Positions 1 through 7,828 of a DNA stretch of 7,945 bases are shown here, in pieces. Numbering within the stretch: the stretch's first letter is position 1; each line of letters begins with the position of its first letter. The stretch is from Oscillospiraceae bacterium (GTDB taxonomy: Bacteria; Bacillota_A; Clostridia; Oscillospirales; Oscillospiraceae), in assembly GCA_017415945.1 (NCBI GenBank), contig JAFQDR010000198.1:1-7945 (forward strand), read 5' to 3'. Under the pieces are notes generated by a model. That model saw nothing but the letters and a program-made list of their open reading frames with translations, had not been told where the DNA came from and did no database searches. A program made the position numbers and the translations under genes.

Positions 1-1147
1 ACAGGGTATCGCCGGTCTTGACCTTGTCCATCTTGCCGATTGCGCCGATGTCGCCGCAGGACAGTTCCTTGACTTCGGTGGTCTTCTTGCCGCACATGGT
101 GTACAGACGGCCCAGCTTTTCGGTTTCGCCGGTGCGTGCGTTTACCAGAGGAGTATCGGAGGTGATGGTGCCGGACAGAACCTTGATGAAGGAGTACTTG
201 CCGTACTGATCGGAAACGGTCTTCCATACGAATGCGGAGGGAACGCCGCCGGGAGATACAACAAATTCTTCGGTGGTGCCGTCAGCCTTGGTAGCCTTGT
301 GGTAGTTGCCTTCGATGGGGTTGGGCAGCAGGTCAACGATGTTGTCCATCAGCAGCAGGGAGCCCATGCAGTTTACGCCGGAGCCGCACAGAACGGGGAA
401 CATGGACAGCTCGGTAACGCCCTGATGCAGACCCTTGATCATTTCAGCGTAGGTGAAGTCTTCGCCGGAGAAGAACTTATCCATCATTTCTTCGCTGGTT
501 TCTGCAACGGATTCCTTCAGAGCTTCGTTGAATTCTTCGATAACGTCTTCCTTGCCTTCGGGAATTTCGATTTCAACGCGCTTCAGGTTGTGCATTTCGT
601 ATGCACGCTTGTTGAGAACGTCCATCAGACCGGTAGCCTTCTTGTTGGAGTCCAGAGTGGGGATAACGATGGGAGCGATCTTGTTGCCGAAGCGTTCACG
701 CAGTGCGTTGTAGGTTGCGTTGTAGTCGGAGTTTTCTTCGTCGATCTTGGAGATGTAGACGAAGCGGGGCATGTTGCGTTCTTCGCAGAACTTCCAAGCC
801 TTTTCCAAACCTACGGTGATGCCGTCCTTAGCGGAGCAGACGATAACAGCTGCGTCAGCTGCACGGAGGGATTCCATAACAGCGCCGGAGAAGTCGAAGT
901 TACCCGGAGTGTCAATGACGTTGATCTTGGTGCCTCTGTATTCTACGGGAGCAACGGAAGCGGAGATGGATACACCGCGGCGTACTTCTTCGGGATCGTA
1001 GTCGCAGACGGTGTTGCCGTCAGCGTTCTTGCCCATACGGTCGATTGCGCCGGTGATATAAAGCAGGCTTTCGACCAGAGCGGTCTTACCGCTGCCGCCG
1101 TGGCCCAGAAGGCAGATGTTGCGGATATTGGTGGTTGCGTAGCTCAT
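1..1147 (-). CDS. EF-G-like translation GTPase, N-terminal 382 residues (runs off left edge)
   Basis: This is a cytoplasmic ribosome-associated GTPase of the elongation factor G superfamily (COG0480). About 382 residues are visible, where full EF-G is near 690. Seen: P-loop GHGGSGKT at 15-22, switch I with RRGVSI at 56-61, G3 DTPGNFDF at 79-86, G4 SKID at 133-136, G5 region PVLCGSG at 251-257, and the start of domain II from about residue 300. Canonical EF-G has GHVDHGKT, DTPGHVDF and NKMD, so this is probably the second, EF-G-like paralogue (fusA2-type) rather than the main translocase. The ATG at 1147-1145 is preceded by AGGAAG (1162-1157) at a 9-base gap. Glu codons are almost all GAA, unlike the GAG-rich neighbours, which suggests strong expression. 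It has its own promoter upstream and a terminator separates it from the gene before it. Membership of the GTPase family is secure; the exact role is not. Confidence 0.93.
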   Translation of the reverse strand, partial: MSYATTNIRNICLLGHGGSGKTALVESLLYITGAIDRMGKNADGNTVCDYDPEEVRRGVSISASVAPVEYRGTKINVIDTPGNFDFSGAVMESLRAADAAVIVCSAKDGITVGLEKAWKFCEERNMPRFVYISKIDEENSDYNATYNALRERFGNKIAPIVIPTLDSNKKATGLMDVLNKRAYEMHNLKRVEIEIPEGKEDVIEEFNEALKESVAETSEEMMDKFFSGEDFTYAEMIKGLHQGVTELSMFPVLCGSGVNCMGSLLLMDNIVDLLPNPIEGNYHKATKADGTTEEFVVSPGGVPSAFVWKTVSDQYGKYSFIKVLSGTITSDTPLVNARTGETEKLGRLYTMCGKKTTEVKELSCGDIGAIGKMDKVKTGDTL

Positions 1148-1476: not shown

Positions 1477-4400
1477 TTATTTGGTGATGCTGACGGTCAG
1501 TGCCAGTGTGGGGACAAGCCACAGCAGCATGAAGATCAGCAGTCTGCCTACGGTGACGGCGCTGCCTGCTCCTGTCAGTGCCATAATGAACATCAAAACG
1601 ATGCCCATGACGGAGGACACTGCGGACAGGGCCACGGACAGGGTCACGGAACGGTACAGATATCGAGCCTTTTCCACCACAGCGGCGTAGGAGAAGAAGC
1701 TCTTGCGGGATACCACCGCTGCGCTGACTGCGGTATCGGAGTCGGCGTGGGAGGTGATCTCATAGCGCTGCTTATAGGAGGGGAAGCGCAGGGTGTCCGT
1801 GGGGGACTTGAACTTCTTGCTGATGAGCAGGGGGGTGATGTTGAAGTCACGGGCCGCAAAGACCATTTCCACGCTGCCCCGCAATGCGGATTCCAGACCT
1901 GCACGGACGGACTTGATGGGCTTGTAGTCCATGACGATGTAGGCGATCACATGACCGTTGACTGCCATGAACAGTGCGTTTTCGCTGTCCTTTTTGCGGG
2001 CGGGGATGCGGAAGCCCTGAAGCTTCATATAGGAATGGCTGGCGATCAGTACCTCGTCGGGGCCGATCATACCGCTGAGGCCGCCTGCCTCATGGCATTG
2101 GAATTCCTCCACAGGCCGCAGCTCACAGTCGTTGTTTTCAGCCAGCTGTTCGAAGGCGGGCACCAGACAGCTGCCGCTTTCCTTGATCATGCTGCAGAAA
2201 TAGCTCATGGTCAGCTCGGGGTTCACCCCGTCCACAATGCGGATGCTGTTGATGACCACGGTCTCATCGGGGAACAGGTCACGGTCGGTGACGATCATGG
2301 TGGAAACACGTCCGATCTCCTTGGTGCCCGTCCAGCCCGCAATGGCGGACTTGGTTGCGTACAGGTCACGCTGGGTCAGGAAATAGGGCAGGGGGAAGGC
2401 CAGCAATGCGGAGAAGGCGGGGGCGGCGGCATACATGGCTGCCAGAATATGGAAGAAATCTCCCATGCCGTCGGACAGCAGAGCTGCCAGCAGACTCAAA
2501 ACGGGAATGCCCACCAGCAGCAGAGGTGCGGCCAAGCCGTAAACGGTTTCCGCAAGGTCTTCTTCCTCGCTGCGGTGGATGTACTGCTCGGGATGACCGA
2601 TGGTACGGTATACGGTGGTGGTCTCCTCGTCCACGATGCCGTAGTCCACGCTGATGGTCAGGGGCTCGGCGCACTGTTCCAAGGTCTTGAAATTCAGTCG
2701 CTGGCTGCGGCAGTAGAGCAGGCTGCCGTAGATGGCAAAGCACACGCTGATGGCAGACACGGCGCAGAAGGGCAGATAGCCGCCCTTACCCTTGGTGGAA
2801 ATGATCACGAGGGCATCAATGACAGATGCGATGCAGGAGACGAACACCAAGCTGTGAAGGGTGGGCTGTCTGCGCAGAAGGGCGGTGAAGCCCCTTGCCA
2901 GAATATCCGCACCTGCCAGCATGACTGTCAGCAGGAGCATCATGCACATGGTTGCAGCTGTGGCGGGGTTCCGGAGAGAACCGAACACGGGCAGACCCAG
3001 TGCGATCCATGCGGAGATCACACACAGCACTGCGGACAGCCGCACGCGGAAGCGATAGTCATTGATGAATTTATTAAAGAAGCGATAGGCCTTGGTGGGG
3101 GTGACCTCCGCGCCCAGAGCATCCTCGTCCTCATCTCCCATAGCGGCGGTGAAGAGAGCCATGACCGCGTTGAATTTCTTGCCGATATGGCTGCCGATGG
3201 CCTTTGCGGGGGCCTCCTCGGGCACATACCGCAGGTCATCGTCGGAAATCTTGTCCTCTTCGGCTTCAGCAGACACAGCGGCACCCTCCTGCTGGGTGTC
3301 GGGATTTTCCAGCAGAGACAAAATCTCTGCAGAGCTTTCCTCCTCCGCATACTCTGTGGGAGTCGGAGCGGGCTCTTCCGTGACGGAAAGCGCGGGCAAT
3401 TGGGCCATGGGCTCTGCGGTATCCTCCTCAGGCAGGGCGGGAACGTAAACCTGTACGTCATCCTCCTCCGCCAATTCCACGGCGGGCTCTTCCAAGGAGA
3501 AGGCATCCTCCTGCTCGGCGGGCTTGCGGCGGAGCTTGTTGGTGGATTCGATCCAGTCAAACAGCTCATCCTGTGCCACGGACTGGAGCTCTTCCTCCTC
3601 GGCAGCACGGAGAGCGGCTTCCTCTGCGGCCTTGCGCAGGGCTTCCTCCTCTGCTTCCCGCTGCAGTGCGGCAATGGCTGCGGGCACCTCGACGATGGGG
3701 TCGGCCACATCCATGATGTGCTCCTCTGCCTCCCATGCAGCCTGCTTGGCTTCCCGTTCCGCTTCCATCTCCGCCATGACCTCCAGCTCCAGCATCAGAG
3801 CACTGTCCATGTCCAGATCGTCTACGGACAGCATCTGATCCTCGAACAGGTCACGGGCGTGGGCAAAGGGATCGGCGGGCGCGGTATCCGCGGTGGCCTT
3901 GGCGGGCTTCTTTTTGAAGCTGCCCAACAGACCCATGACTGCGGCAGCGGCCTTGGTCAGCAGACCGGGGCCCTTTTCCTTGGGGGGCTCGGTCAAAGCT
4001 GCAGGTGCGGGGCCGATGGCCTCGGGGATCTCCAGATCCTCCACGGCGGTGAAGGGCACGGTTTCCTCGGGGATATAGACCTTGATGTCCTCCTCATCCT
4101 CCGCGGGCGCGTCCTTGGCTTCGGGAGCATAGACCTTCACACCCTCCTCGTCTATGGGGGTGCCGAATTCATAGAGGATGTCGCCGATACCGAAGGGGTC
4201 ACCCAACAGATCCCCGTGGTACACAGAGGTGTCCTCGGAGACGGCAGCTTCGGGCATTACCTTGACATCCTCGTCTTCCTCATCCTCGGAGAAAAAGTCC
4301 TCGGGGGCTTCGGTGATGACGGGAATGACAATAGTCTCCTGAGGGACGGGCTCCTCGGTGGCGGGAGCTGCGGGTGCTGCTTCCTCTGCAGGATCCTCGA

Positions 4401-4587
4401 TGGCGGCGAATACCAGAGTGGCATCGTCCTCCTCAATGATCTGCGGCAGGGGCTCGGCATCCTCCTCGGGGGTGTCGAACAGACCGGGGGTGCTGAATTC
4501 GAACAGGATATCATCCAGATCAAATTCGATATCGTCCTCCGATGCATCGGTCAGATCCAATAATTCCAGATCTTCCAGAATACTCAT
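1477..4587 (-). CDS. Large membrane protein: acidic N-terminal half plus degenerate P-type ATPase-like C-terminal half
   Basis: The protein has 1036 residues. Residues 1-500 are Glu/Asp/Ala/Pro-rich and probably disordered, with repeated short motifs (DILFEFSTP at 26, DILYEFGTP at 136; VKV-type motifs near 108, 150, 168 and 378), a basic patch at 225-230 and a charged helical stretch at 262-345. Membrane segments are likely near 515-535, 542-561, 577-597, 604-625, 683-705, 710-737, 980-1003 and 1012-1033. This 4+2+2 layout with a soluble block at 738-979 matches P1B-type metal ATPases. Key motifs are degenerate: CPC is APA (722-724), DKTGT is DRDLF (Asp768 kept), no TGE loop is seen in the short 626-680 region, TGDN is ARDFN (912-916), and GDGxND is missing. 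MDYKP (886-890) still resembles the P-domain Asp-x-x-x-Pro segment. ATP-driven transport is therefore unlikely and a sensing or scaffold role is possible. The ATG is preceded by AAGGA with a 10-base gap, and the gene follows rlmB by 21 bases, so they are probably cotranscribed. The family assignment rests on motif alignment by eye. Confidence 0.93.
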   Translation of the reverse strand: MSILEDLELLDLTDASEDDIEFDLDDILFEFSTPGLFDTPEEDAEPLPQIIEEDDATLVFAAIEDPAEEAAPAAPATEEPVPQETIVIPVITEAPEDFFSEDEEDEDVKVMPEAAVSEDTSVYHGDLLGDPFGIGDILYEFGTPIDEEGVKVYAPEAKDAPAEDEEDIKVYIPEETVPFTAVEDLEIPEAIGPAPAALTEPPKEKGPGLLTKAAAAVMGLLGSFKKKPAKATADTAPADPFAHARDLFEDQMLSVDDLDMDSALMLELEVMAEMEAEREAKQAAWEAEEHIMDVADPIVEVPAAIAALQREAEEEALRKAAEEAALRAAEEEELQSVAQDELFDWIESTNKLRRKPAEQEDAFSLEEPAVELAEEDDVQVYVPALPEEDTAEPMAQLPALSVTEEPAPTPTEYAEEESSAEILSLLENPDTQQEGAAVSAEAEEDKISDDDLRYVPEEAPAKAIGSHIGKKFNAVMALFTAAMGDEDEDALGAEVTPTKAYRFFNKFINDYRFRVRLSAVLCVISAWIALGLPVFGSLRNPATAATMCMMLLLTVMLAGADILARGFTALLRRQPTLHSLVFVSCIASVIDALVIISTKGKGGYLPFCAVSAISVCFAIYGSLLYCRSQRLNFKTLEQCAEPLTISVDYGIVDEETTTVYRTIGHPEQYIHRSEEEDLAETVYGLAAPLLLVGIPVLSLLAALLSDGMGDFFHILAAMYAAAPAFSALLAFPLPYFLTQRDLYATKSAIAGWTGTKEIGRVSTMIVTDRDLFPDETVVINSIRIVDGVNPELTMSYFCSMIKESGSCLVPAFEQLAENNDCELRPVEEFQCHEAGGLSGMIGPDEVLIASHSYMKLQGFRIPARKKDSENALFMAVNGHVIAYIVMDYKPIKSVRAGLESALRGSVEMVFAARDFNITPLLISKKFKSPTDTLRFPSYKQRYEITSHADSDTAVSAAVVSRKSFFSYAAVVEKARYLYRSVTLSVALSAVSSVMGIVLMFIMALTGAGSAVTVGRLLIFMLLWLVPTLALTVSITK

Positions 4588-4608: not shown

Positions 4609-5406
4609 TTACTTCATTCTCTGGTGCAATACTTCGTACATCAAAATGGTGGCGGCACAGGAAGCATTCAGGGAGCTGACCTTGCCCTTCATGGGGATGC
4701 TTACGCATACGTCGCAGCTCTCAGCCACCAGACGGCTCATGCCGTCCCCTTCGGAGCCGATGACCAGACCGATGGGGCCTGTCAGGTTGGTTTTCCACAG
4801 GGAGGACTGACCGTCGGCAGCGGTGCCGTAGATCCACAGGCCTGCCTGCTTCAGCTCCTTAATGGCATTGGTGATATTGGGCACGCGGGCAACGGCCATA
4901 TGCTCGGCGGCACCTGCGCTGACCTTGCCCACAATGGCGGTGACCCCTGCGCTGCGGCGCTTGGGGATGATGATGCCGTGGGCACCCGCGCATTCCGCGG
5001 AGCGGATGATGGCACCCAGATTGTGGGGGTCGCTGATCTCATCGCAGATGATGACGAAGGGATCCTCCCCACGCTCCGCCGCAATGGCCAGAATGTCGTC
5101 AGTGGAGCAGTAGGTGCGCACGGCACAGACCGCAACCACGCCCTGATGGGCACCGGTCTGGCTCATCATGTCCAGCTTGCGGCGTTCGGTCTCCACCACC
5201 ACAATGCCGTTGGCACGGGCCTTGGAGGCAATGTGACCCAGCGTCTTGTCGGTCTCACCCTTTGCCAGATAGATCTTATCGATGGCGCGGCCCGCACGCA
5301 GTGCTTCGATGACGGCGTTGCGGCCCTCCACGATCTCGTTTTTCAGCTCACGCTCCTCACGTTCGGGGTGGAGCTGTTCGTTGTTTTCTTCGTATTTCAA
5401 AGTCAT
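4609..5406 (-). CDS. rlmB: 23S rRNA (guanosine-2'-O)-methyltransferase, RlmB/TrmH family
   Basis: This is a cytoplasmic SPOUT-class enzyme that transfers a methyl group from S-adenosylmethionine to a ribose 2'-OH, in RlmB of G2251 of 23S rRNA. The 265 residues comprise a charged tail (1-24), a substrate-binding L30e-like domain (about 25-100) and the knotted SpoU domain (about 115-262). All three SpoU motifs are present: DPHNLGAIIRSA at 126-137 with Arg135, LVIGSEGDG at 214-222 with Glu219, and IPMKGKVSSLNAS at 237-249 with Asn247. The N-terminal domain favours RlmB over the shorter TrmL type; other TrmH-family targets cannot be excluded. The start is uncertain: GAGG lies only two bases before the chosen ATG, but eight bases before a TTG at codon 3 (5400-5398). 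It is first in a likely two-gene operon with the 1036-residue protein. No convincing promoter was found upstream. Confidence 0.93.
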   Translation of the reverse strand: MTLKYEENNEQLHPEREERELKNEIVEGRNAVIEALRAGRAIDKIYLAKGETDKTLGHIASKARANGIVVVETERRKLDMMSQTGAHQGVVAVCAVRTYCSTDDILAIAAERGEDPFVIICDEISDPHNLGAIIRSAECAGAHGIIIPKRRSAGVTAIVGKVSAGAAEHMAVARVPNITNAIKELKQAGLWIYGTAADGQSSLWKTNLTGPIGLVIGSEGDGMSRLVAESCDVCVSIPMKGKVSSLNASCAATILMYEVLHQRMK

Positions 5407-5524
5407 TTCCTCAATTTCTCAGTAAAATGGGCATAGTAACGCGATTCTATAAAGATACAGCATAAATATAACATATGTGTCGAAAAAACAAAAGCATAAA
5501 AATAGTGTATTTGCAAACAAATTA

Positions 5525-5533
5525 TGGTACAAT
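5525..5533 (+). promoter_or_regulatory. Extended -10 promoter for the rhomboid-like gene
   Basis: TGG directly followed by TACAAT (5528-5533) forms an extended -10 element. At 16-18 bases upstream no good -35 hexamer is seen, which fits extended -10 promoters. The predicted start near 5540 leaves a leader of about 47 bases. Its position also argues against a longer reading frame that would start at 5524. Confidence 0.55.
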
Positions 5534-5539
5534 GTGCTG

Positions 5540-5555
5540 TGCGAAGGATTTCGCA
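5540..5555 (+). promoter_or_regulatory. Possible 5'-terminal mRNA stem-loop
   Basis: TGCGAA (5540-5545), loop GGAT, TTCGCA (5550-5555) form a perfect six-base-pair hairpin. It falls at or just after the predicted transcription start, where such hairpins are known to protect mRNA ends. It is 18 bases upstream of the Shine-Dalgarno site, so it does not hide it. Confidence 0.4.
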
Positions 5556-5586
5556 TGACTACTTACCCCTCACGGAGGAAACAAAC

Positions 5587-6432
5587 ATGAAAAAGCTTAT
5601 GGATAAAATCGACCGATTTTGCTACACCCACCCCAACTTCGGTATTCCCCGACTGATGCTGTACATCGTCATCGGCAATATCGCCGTGTTTCTGCTGTCG
5701 GCTATGGACACCACGGGGATGCTGCGGGGACTGCTGACCTTCTCGCCCGAGATGATCTTCAAGCACGGACAGATCTGGCGTTTGGTCACCTTTGTGTTCA
5801 TCCCCGAAAGCACGGGGCTGGCATTGGTGCTGTGGCTGTATTTGTATTACTTCATCGGCAATGCCTTGGAGGATCGCTGGGGCAGCGCAAAGTTTACGGT
5901 GTTCTATGTGTCGGGCATGCTGCTGAGCGGTCTGTACAGCACTGTCATGTGGCTGCTGACGGGCTATGACGTGACCGCTACCTCTCACTATATCAACCTG
6001 TCCATGTTCTTTGCCTTTGCCACTCTGTACCCCGATCTGCAGCTGCTGTTTATGTTCATCATTCCCATTAAGATCAAGTGGCTGGCACTGGCTGACCTGC
6101 TGCTGTTTTTGGCGGGGATCTTGGGCAATCCCTTCCCCTACAACCTGCTGCCCGTTGTGGCACTGCTGAACTATGTGCTGTTCTTCGGGGAATGGCTGCT
6201 GCAGCTGTTTACCCCCGAAAGCAAGGCACGCCGTCAGACCAAGACCAACTTCAAAAACGAGCAGCGGCGCATCCATCACGAAATGAAGACCAAGCCCTAC
6301 AATCGCAAGTGCGAGGTCTGCGGACGCACCGACACGGACTATCCCGATCTGGAGTTCCGCTTCTGCTCCCGCTGCGAGGGCTACCACTGCTACTGCATTG
6401 ACCACATCGGCAATCATGTTCACAAAACATAA
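5587..6432 (+). CDS. Rhomboid-fold membrane protein with C-terminal Cys/His (zinc-finger-like) domain, probably not a protease
   Basis: The protein has 281 residues. Seen: about six hydrophobic segments between residues 22 and 207, with rhomboid-like landmarks GQIWRLVTFVF (61-71) and NALEDRWGSAKF (92-103). The usual GxSG catalytic serine motif is absent; the equivalent stretch reads YINLSMFFAF (135-144). No catalytic histidine is seen in the last membrane segment (NYVLFFGEW, 195-203). The tail after residue 210 is basic and ends in C242xxC245, C260xxC263, H267, C268, C270, H273, H277 and H279, a probable zinc-binding treble-clef or ribbon facing the cytoplasm. By analogy with iRhoms and Derlins it may bind membrane proteins rather than cut them; this is inference. 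The start at 5587 was chosen because GGAGGA (5574-5579) lies seven bases upstream. An in-frame ATG at 5524 lies within the likely promoter. It is divergent from rlmB. Confidence 0.9.
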   Translation: MKKLMDKIDRFCYTHPNFGIPRLMLYIVIGNIAVFLLSAMDTTGMLRGLLTFSPEMIFKHGQIWRLVTFVFIPESTGLALVLWLYLYYFIGNALEDRWGSAKFTVFYVSGMLLSGLYSTVMWLLTGYDVTATSHYINLSMFFAFATLYPDLQLLFMFIIPIKIKWLALADLLLFLAGILGNPFPYNLLPVVALLNYVLFFGEWLLQLFTPESKARRQTKTNFKNEQRRIHHEMKTKPYNRKCEVCGRTDTDYPDLEFRFCSRCEGYHCYCIDHIGNHVHKT

Positions 6433-6551: not shown

Positions 6552-7241
6552 TTGTTTACAGGATTTACCCCCGCTGCCTCGGATTTTCTCTGGGGCATTC
6601 GGTTCAATAACTATCGTGACTGGTTCATGGCGCATAAGCAGGAATATCTGAGTCTTGTGCAGCAGCCCTTGAAGGAGCTGGCACAGGAGGTGTTCGACCG
6701 ATTTACGGAGAAGTACCCCGACTTGAATATGGAGCTCCATGTGTCCCGCATTTACCGTGATGCCCGCCGCCTCCACGGGAAGGGACCCTACAAGGATCAC
6801 CTGTGGTTCTCCATTCGCAGACCCGCCGCGGAGCATTGGACGGAACGGCCTGTGTTCTGGTTCGAGATCGGCCCCGAGGGCTACGGCTACGGCATGGGCA
6901 TGTGGATGGCCAAGCCCTTTACCATGGAGTGCTACCGTAAGGAGCTGCTGGAGCATCCGGAGGGGCTGCTGCCCTTGGCGGAGCGGTTAGAGGCACAGAA
7001 TGTGTTTGTGCTGGATTCCCCCGAATATAAGCGGCCCAAGCCCGATACCCCCCAGGGGATTTTGGCAAAGTGGTACAACCGCAAGGGCTTTTCCATCAGC
7101 TGCGAGCGGCAGTGGGACAGCACATTGGAAAGCCGCCAAATTGCAGAGGATCTGCTGGAGGGCTACGACTTCCTGATGCCATATTACCAATACTTCACCG
7201 AAATGTGTGACCTCGCACGCATGAAGGAATTTATGAGATGA
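6552..7241 (+). CDS. DUF2461 family protein
   Basis: The 229-residue soluble protein matches the DUF2461 (TIGR02453) pattern as I know it: FNNYRDWF at 18-25, the RIYRDAR motif at 66-72, GPYKDHLWF at 78-86, and a Gly/aromatic-rich FEIGPEGYGYGMGMW at 104-118. Its length is close to the family norm of about 220. No biochemical function is established for the family that I can name. The start is a TTG at 6552, supported by AGGAGA (6537-6542) nine bases upstream; no suitable in-frame ATG lies nearby before the first conserved motif. It follows the rhomboid-like gene by 119 bases, with the paired-hairpin element between, and no clear promoter of its own was seen, so readthrough transcription is plausible. 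A bidirectional terminator begins at the base after its stop codon. Confidence 0.9.
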   Translation: MFTGFTPAASDFLWGIRFNNYRDWFMAHKQEYLSLVQQPLKELAQEVFDRFTEKYPDLNMELHVSRIYRDARRLHGKGPYKDHLWFSIRRPAAEHWTERPVFWFEIGPEGYGYGMGMWMAKPFTMECYRKELLEHPEGLLPLAERLEAQNVFVLDSPEYKRPKPDTPQGILAKWYNRKGFSISCERQWDSTLESRQIAEDLLEGYDFLMPYYQYFTEMCDLARMKEFMR

Positions 7242-7585: not shown

Positions 7586-7828
7586 ATGACATTGAAAGAT
7601 GCCATTGCCAACAGAATTATGGAGTTGTGCCGCCAGCAAGGCATCGCACCCAATGAACTTGCCAATCGTGCAGGAGTAAGCCCTTCCACGGTTTATAGTA
7701 TTTTGGGCTCAAAGAGCAAACGACCGGAAGTAGCGACTATTAAAAAGATTTGCGATGCACTGGAAATCACACTTGGGCAGTTCTTTTCCACAAAGGAATT
7801 TGACGGATTGGAACAGGAAATTCAATAA
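7586..7828 (+). CDS. XRE-family helix-turn-helix transcriptional regulator
   Basis: This 80-residue protein is essentially a single HTH_3 (Cro/C1-type) DNA-binding domain: helices from about residue 5, the helix-turn-helix NELANRAGVSPSTVYSILG at 23-41, and the closing IKKICDALEITLGQFF (52-67) typical of the family. It has no sensor or protease domain. The ATG at 7586 has AGGAG (7573-7577) eight bases upstream. Three palindromic sites lie between it and the divergent 56-residue gene, one abutting its own ribosome site, so it very likely represses both genes as a dimer; this is inference from layout. A terminator starts three bases after its stop. Its base composition is lower in GC than the genes to the left, which fits acquisition by transfer. 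Confidence 0.93.
   Translation: MTLKDAIANRIMELCRQQGIAPNELANRAGVSPSTVYSILGSKSKRPEVATIKKICDALEITLGQFFSTKEFDGLEQEIQ

Follow-up and report, generated by a model that had tools for sequence, protein, structure and literature searches.

A family of degenerate P1B-type ATPases with a conserved substitute site and a possible role as membrane-anchored adaptors

P-type ATPases are defined by a phosphorylated aspartate, and in the P1B copper pump CopA, the metal ligands lie in transmembrane helices TM5 and TM6. Here we consider a gene in a 7,945-nucleotide stretch of DNA (the window) from an Oscillospiraceae bacterium (contig JAFQDR010000198.1, assembly GCA_017415945.1), which an initial annotation made from the letters alone had described as a degenerate P1B-type ATPase. 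That description holds, in that the open reading frame (ORF) is complete, the fold is that of a P1B pump, and the motif losses are genuine. The encoded protein and its relatives have lost DKTGT, TGDN, GDGxND, CPC, and HP, together with most of the A domain, and they carry a conserved substitute site. We know of no route by which a protein with the motifs read in this sequence could run the P-type cycle. We posit, tentatively and as somewhat short of an even chance, that it is a pseudo-P1B pump, that is, a descendant of the P1B metal ATPases whose catalytic cycle was dismantled and which now acts as a membrane-anchored adaptor. We found no report of the family in the accessible parts of the open-license PMC literature (PMC10654040 and PMC10211241 among them), and a word search of the available main text of PMC10211241, a review of pseudoenzymes, finds none of the terms ATPase, transporter, and P-type.

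Sequence searches with the single window protein give little hint of its ancestry. A PDB sequence search returned nothing meaningful, and a profile search was needed to find the relation to pumps; Pfam and NCBIfam yielded only sub-threshold noise (DUF3038 and Arch_PMK), and TIGR01525 (cut-off, 346.25 bits) had no row for the protein at E ≤ 1. Among the 51 members of an alignment of the family, 16 match TIGR01525 at E ≤ 0.1 (best, 6.3e-10), and a Pfam scan found a single weak Hydrolase match (0.0055), in 1/51. The core strongly resembles P-type ATPase structures, and its P and N domains can be matched to their counterparts in CopA and CopB. Hydropathy recovers the 4+2+2 order of membrane segments that the initial annotation had read, and an AlphaFold2 (AF2) model of the core agrees (mean predicted local distance difference test [pLDDT], 90.9; predicted template modeling score, 0.87). 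In that model, the A domain between membrane helices 4 and 5 is reduced to a small hairpin.

We aligned 176 distinct cores (193 raw hits, less duplicates and cores shorter than 450 residues) with 30 canonical P1B pumps, which were chosen for having DKTGT and come from 24 family-carrying genomes. Each of DKTGT, CPC, and GDGxND is found in 0/176 relatives and in 30/30 of these pumps, and TGDN is found in 0/176 versus 24/30; the GDGxND loop is an alignment gap in all 176 cores. The losses are thus common to the relatives, and no homologue that retains CPC or DKTGT, of the kind that would make this copy merely a decayed gene, is among the 176 examined. The H and P columns of the HP motif, which the annotation had failed to see, read S806 and C807, with P on its column in only 6 of the 176 cores, and the T-G-E columns of TGES read S646-V647-D648. 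The distance between the CPC site and the Asp column, noted earlier as being close to that of CopA-type pumps, has a median of 44 residues in relatives and canonical pumps alike. At the former metal site, A722-P723-A724 was correctly located, but APA is simply this protein's version of a site that varies among relatives; F731 and P734 are invariant in 52 aligned rows, and none of the TM5/TM6 ligands of CopA are visible in the window sequence.

What replaced the active site is conserved. Its register is set by sequence alignments (profile and MAFFT) and by the strand ends of the model: the Asp of DKTGT aligns with T767, the Lys with D768, and the Gly with D770, and the model strand ends at 766. 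Asp768, proposed at first as the phosphorylation-site residue, is therefore off by one. Of the 176 cores, 118 have T on the catalytic column, 26 have S, 10 have K, another 10 have D, and 12 have other residues; the six columns after it give D in 162, R in 77, D in 170, L in 139, F in 174, and P in 173. In the TGDN region, the counts are 162 for R, 174 for D, 161 for F, and 168 for N. Within the core, these substitute-site residues rank with the best conserved. The positions first given for TDRDLFP (767 to 773), for ARDFN in place of TGDN (912 to 916), and for DTAVSAAVV (951 to 959) all proved right.

The family is present through much of one order, beside rlmB. A protein search with residues 495 to 1036, in which scoring was limited to the 7992 candidates with the most words in common, returned 87 proteins, query included, and the few that are named are Oscillospiraceae metagenome-assembled genomes or "hypothetical protein." Scanned against genome contigs, the single sequence retrieved no relative; a scan with the 51-row alignment found 187 relatives (of 245 stretches), the best 80 of which (L001 to L080) were used and carry the motif by selection, the scan having used the one pattern FAxRDFN[IV][TN]. 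A hidden Markov model of the core sets the family apart: of its 225 hits, 193 score above 130 bits, and the highest score among the remaining 32 is 76.5. In the order of genome G002, which we take to be Oscillospirales, 207 of 295 genomes have a match at E ≤ 1e-25, one each and two in G486, in a count for which only the two best candidates per genome were scored, so that further copies may have escaped it. Among 391 genomes sampled across the class, 271 gave a match at E ≤ 0.001, only 17 of them at 9.2e-21 or better, and the remaining matches (3.7e-14 or worse) look like cross-hits to ordinary pumps. All 17 best genomes fall within the 295-genome sample, 16 as matches and one (G116) without a match at the stricter threshold there.

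Synteny was checked at 96 loci, 5 of which were too short for the rlmB test. Of the 91 loci with sufficient room, 89 have rlmB no more than 1.5 kb upstream on the same strand (median gap, 37). Downstream, an EF-G-like gene is present in 75 of 91 that have room; perhaps this neighborhood reflects co-transcription only. Pairwise ratios of nonsynonymous to synonymous substitution (dN/dS) over the core were computed for 470 pairs of 60 to 98% identity, and in the 444 pairs with dS of <2, the median is 0.35 and the maximum 0.59. The gene is under purifying selection. With the fold kept, the catalytic motifs lost, and the gene under selection, the family reads as a pseudoenzyme.

The annotation had also described an acidic repeat region of some 500 residues, and the arm is indeed acidic (137 D+E and 27 K+R in 490 residues), but no tandem repeat was found when we looked for one in the window protein. 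It does hold three copies of a K/Q-V-Y-x-P-type peptide and one DIL-type peptide. Arm length ranges from 118 to 1186 residues in the relatives (median, 290), and in a full-length AF2 model of the window protein, the pLDDT of the arm is mostly 30 to 50 outside two helical stretches. Most of the arm aligns poorly between relatives, and its best-kept element is the N-terminal DIL-type peptide, FDLDDILFEF, in which I27, L28, and E30 do not vary across 52 aligned relatives drawn from P0001 to P0070 (of 87; the most distant 17 were left out). A strict regular expression finds it in the first 70 residues of 94/182 proteins (0.0 per shuffled arm), a relaxed one finds it in 125/182, and a loose one finds it in 116/174 arms versus 4/174 shuffled controls. 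It occurs in 50/75 of L001 to L080 and in 7 of the 16 distant loci L129 to L144, near the start, for example as FSIDDILEEY, FSLDDILAEI, or MSVDDILEEL. Docking of the peptide on the protein's own core has no support in the full-length model, judged by pLDDT only.

The same peptide turns up in unrelated proteins. A DNA pattern for it gave 29 hits in 20 genomes versus 3 for the reversed pattern; outside the family, the hits include the C terminus of LspA and the N-terminal part of two phosphodiester-glycosidase (NAGPA) proteins, and several others look like chance. LspA scored over its cut-off in 21 of 24 family-holding genomes, hand-picked from the 80 contig-scan relatives; 17 of these 21 proteins end with the peptide, and two more end with the variant LTVDDILKEIL or VTVDDILKEIL. 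These signal peptidase II proteins (L174 to L194), and that of L300, have long C-terminal tails, which end in (F/Y)-x-(L/I/V)-(D/E)-x-I-(L/I/M)-x-E-F in 17 of the 21 and in L300. In a class sample, the tail peptide was found in 0/30 LspA proteins read, from 30 loci of the 55 genomes above the cut-off (one of the 30 genomes, G059, also holds the gene). The NAGPA domain is recognized in the two peptide-bearing proteins at E values of 1.1e-12 and 7.1e-12, and the peptide is in 0/30 NAGPA loci examined (of 63 match rows), the two bearers having come from the pattern scan. Because distant family members have the peptide where LspA lacks it, the peptide probably arose earlier in the pseudo-pump than in LspA.

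Since the parts of a pump have been lost and yet the relatives are widely kept beside the same gene, the protein probably has another job, such as docking proteins. It retains a membrane bundle, an N/P head that bears a conserved patch, and a long arm carrying a docking-type peptide. In the model that we propose, the arm would lie in the cytosol, and its first short helix would dock on a cytosolic partner, one that LspA and some phosphodiester-glycosidase proteins may also use in part of the order. Where the active site used to be, the remodeled N/P head would provide another surface for binding. The pseudo-pump would thus hold partners together at the membrane, with no transport.

How the site changed can be read in part from 17 distant members (15 loci of L111 to L144 plus P0086 and P0087), to which all 10 Asp-bearing cores among the 176 belong. 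D914 is kept in 17/17 of them and FP in 15/17. Given that the Asp-bearing cores are confined to these members, D914 and D-L-F-P look like ancestral features of the family, and replacement of the catalytic Asp by T or S looks like a property of the larger clade that includes the window protein; the Asp-keeping members are possible intermediates in the loss of catalysis. In L132, L133, L134, L135, and others of L129 to L144, we observed a catalytic-column Asp followed by x-x-D-(L/I)-F-P or similar.

Several observations weigh against the adaptor model. An Asp on the catalytic column is retained in 10 of the 17 distant members (e.g., VMVDAKDLFPKGT). The substitute site is not uniform: RDFN is found in 77/82 protein-search proteins and 79/79 of L001 to L080 but in only 1 of the 15 distant loci of L111 to L144, and a TDxDLFP-like pattern is found in 79/82, 70/79, and 9/15, respectively; moreover, the RDFN counts are inflated because L001 to L080 were found with that very motif. 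A TGE string occurs in 39/176 cores, in many of them within a "VTGE" of the hairpin. In the full-length AF2 model, the N-terminal peptide forms no more than a weak helix (pLDDT of 62 and 54 for its blocks), and the regular expressions miss many arms (e.g., 9 of the 16 distant loci), although the misses include variants (DLNDILFEF) and cut starts. The LspA tail peptide was found in just 1 of 28 further gene-holding genomes (L300) and in 0/18 order genomes without a family match at E ≤ 1e-25 (19 searched), in both cases with a looser regular expression, and on these counts, a general rule linking the tail to the pseudo-pump gene was rejected. No partner was found in this analysis, which covered sequences and predicted models.

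Could the remodeled head instead bind phosphate, a nucleotide, or a metabolite in a pocket formed by T767-D768-D770 and R913-D914-N916, making the protein a ligand sensor or the seat of a migrated enzymatic activity? In its favor, few core residues are as conserved as the new ones, 174/176 cores and all 17 distant members retain the Asp of TGDN, 10 of these 17 still have an Asp on the catalytic column, and the P and N domains have alignable counterparts in CopA and CopB. Against it, the family has lost the GDGxND Mg site, the HP motif, and both the Lys and the Thr of DKTGT, and the catalytic column is mostly Thr or Ser in the window's clade. We regard this as a real but unlikely alternative, perhaps one chance among several. 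Might the protein be a prozyme-like regulatory partner of an intact P1B pump in the same cell, acting through its membrane or head domains? A heavy-metal P-type ATPase match over the cut-off is present in all 24 gene-holding genomes tested, and the 30 pumps read all have CPC, a TGE motif, and GDGxND. Such pumps are near-universal, however, with matches in 14/14 control genomes (13 over the cut-off), and the fixed neighbors are rlmB and EF-G, although an adjacent pump gene was not looked for in every locus. We consider this distinctly improbable.

Descent from metal pumps and the acidic arm would be in keeping with a metal sensor, in which the arm or the old CPC site binds metal and signals. 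Yet the window's arm has no Cys and 4 His, relatives average 0.47 Cys per arm (178 arms), and CPC is found in none of the 176 cores, so metal sensing is disfavored and has at best a slim chance of being right; the metal-binding arm of the initial annotation is not borne out. Of its "sensor or scaffold," the pump ancestry and an apparent inability to pump stand, and a scaffold is plausible, while a metal sensor is not what the data point to. A decaying pseudogene would explain motif loss in a single protein, and one genome match (G433), which also counts against our own model, has an internal TGA. Nonetheless, an open frame scoring as a family member in 96/96 loci checked (some cut by contig ends), the low dN/dS, and the spread of the gene through the order led us to reject decay, to which we assign almost no probability.

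The window's family is not the only degenerate P1B lineage in these genomes. The 24 family-holding genomes also give TIGR01525 matches below its cut-off, and 13 such stretches (set B; L116 to L128) are 513 to 637 amino acids long as read. In set B, DKTGT is altered (e.g., SKTGT, SAEGT, DKSG, or DKFDV), and regular expressions find no GDGxND and no TGES in the 13 stretches (L121 has a TGE string). Eight set B proteins were scanned against NCBIfam, and all of them match models of heavy-metal P-type ATPases, with scores under the TIGR01525 cut-off. In a quick tree, 12 set B rows group with three canonical pumps that score over the TIGR01512 (cadmium-type) cut-off (Shimodaira-Hasegawa-like approximate likelihood ratio test [SH-aLRT], 97), and 24 rows of the window's family are separate (SH-aLRT, 100); finer placement is unsafe, given long branches (A_L141, A_L138, A_L139, B_L122, and B_L124) and a doubtful join of B_L116 and B_L122. 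Set B resembles the window's family in consisting of degenerate P1B proteins and differs from it in being related to Zn/Cd ATPases (ZntA/CadA, P1B-2) and in its motif relics. We speculate, as a broader and rather doubtful proposition, that the order turned P1B pumps into non-transporting membrane scaffolds at least two times and that a docking system has the rlmB-linked family as its backbone, such that F-S-L-D-D-I-L-x-E-F on cytosolic tails (the N terminus described here, the LspA C terminus in some genomes, and some phosphodiester-glycosidase N termini) would bring unrelated membrane proteins to one cytosolic partner.

Table 1. Positions of the features discussed; coordinates are those of the window unless a locus is named
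Feature	Residues	Coordinates	Strand	Remarks
Pseudo-P1B ATPase gene		1477..4587	(-)	1036 amino acids + stop; complete ORF
Acidic, mostly disordered arm	1-490	3118..4587	(-)	28% D+E, 5.5% K+R
N-terminal peptide FDLDDILFEF	22-31	4495..4524	(-)	predicted short helix 24-31
EGVKVYAP, copy 1 of 3	148-155	4123..4146	(-)	
EDIKVYIP, copy 2 of 3	166-173	4069..4092	(-)	
Long arm helices	260-293 and 303-353	3529..3810	(-)	pLDDT about 60-92, blocks of ten
DDVQVYVP, copy 3 of 3	376-383	3439..3462	(-)	
Core with P1B fold	490-1036	1480..3120	(-)	8 membrane segments (4+2+2)
A-domain remnant, one beta hairpin	643-663	2599..2661	(-)	AF2 model and alignment
Former metal site	722-734	2386..2424	(-)	APA for CPC, then AFPLP
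TDRDLFP for DKTGTLT	767-773	2269..2289	(-)	T767 on catalytic Asp column
N-domain-like region without HP motif	777-904	1876..2259	(-)	profile alignment, structure comparison
ARDFN for TGDN	912-916	1840..1854	(-)	alignment
Shortened P-domain segment, GDGxND loop missing	926-954	1726..1812	(-)	alignment
rlmB (23S rRNA Gm2251 methyltransferase)		4609..5406	(-)	TIGR00186, E 1.9e-70; 21 bases upstream of pseudo-P1B gene
EF-G-like GTPase		2..1147	(-)	downstream of pseudo-P1B gene, same strand; cut by window end
NAGPA-domain protein		L164:1-1545	(-)	DYDLEDILAEY in N-terminal part
NAGPA-domain protein		L170:43-1650	(-)	DFDLDDILAEF in N-terminal part

Elsewhere in the window, a rhomboid/Der1-like membrane protein with a Cys-rich C-terminal part is encoded at 5524-6432 (+). 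S160 of this protein is conserved, a GxSG string is found in only 3 of 66 relatives, and N216 seems to occupy what we take to be the place of the TM6 His; possibly, judging by these residues, it is another pseudoenzyme. A DUF2461 protein (6552-7241, +) and a small Cro/C1-type helix-turn-helix regulator (7586-7828, +) follow.

If the adaptor model is right, the fold of a pump can be given new use as a scaffold or receptor, with its active site exchanged for another conserved site across much of a gut-bacterial order, and the distant Asp-keeping members would show that loss step by step. The shared tail peptide would provide a direct handle, usable as bait to find the partner. There is also a warning here, in that motif-poor relatives of heavy-metal ATPases in these genomes may not be pumps. 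Set against known systems, the family is like pseudoenzymes in general, as the accessible text of PMC10211241 portrays them, in that the fold is conserved and the catalytic motifs are lost. It also resembles the P1B-1 copper ATPases (CopA; PDB 3rfu and 4bbj), with which it shares the fold, the 4+2+2 topology, the CPC-to-Asp spacing, and the order of the P and N domains; unlike CopA, it is without CPC, DKTGT, TGDN, GDGxND, and HP, its A domain is a hairpin, and it bears a long acidic N-terminal arm.
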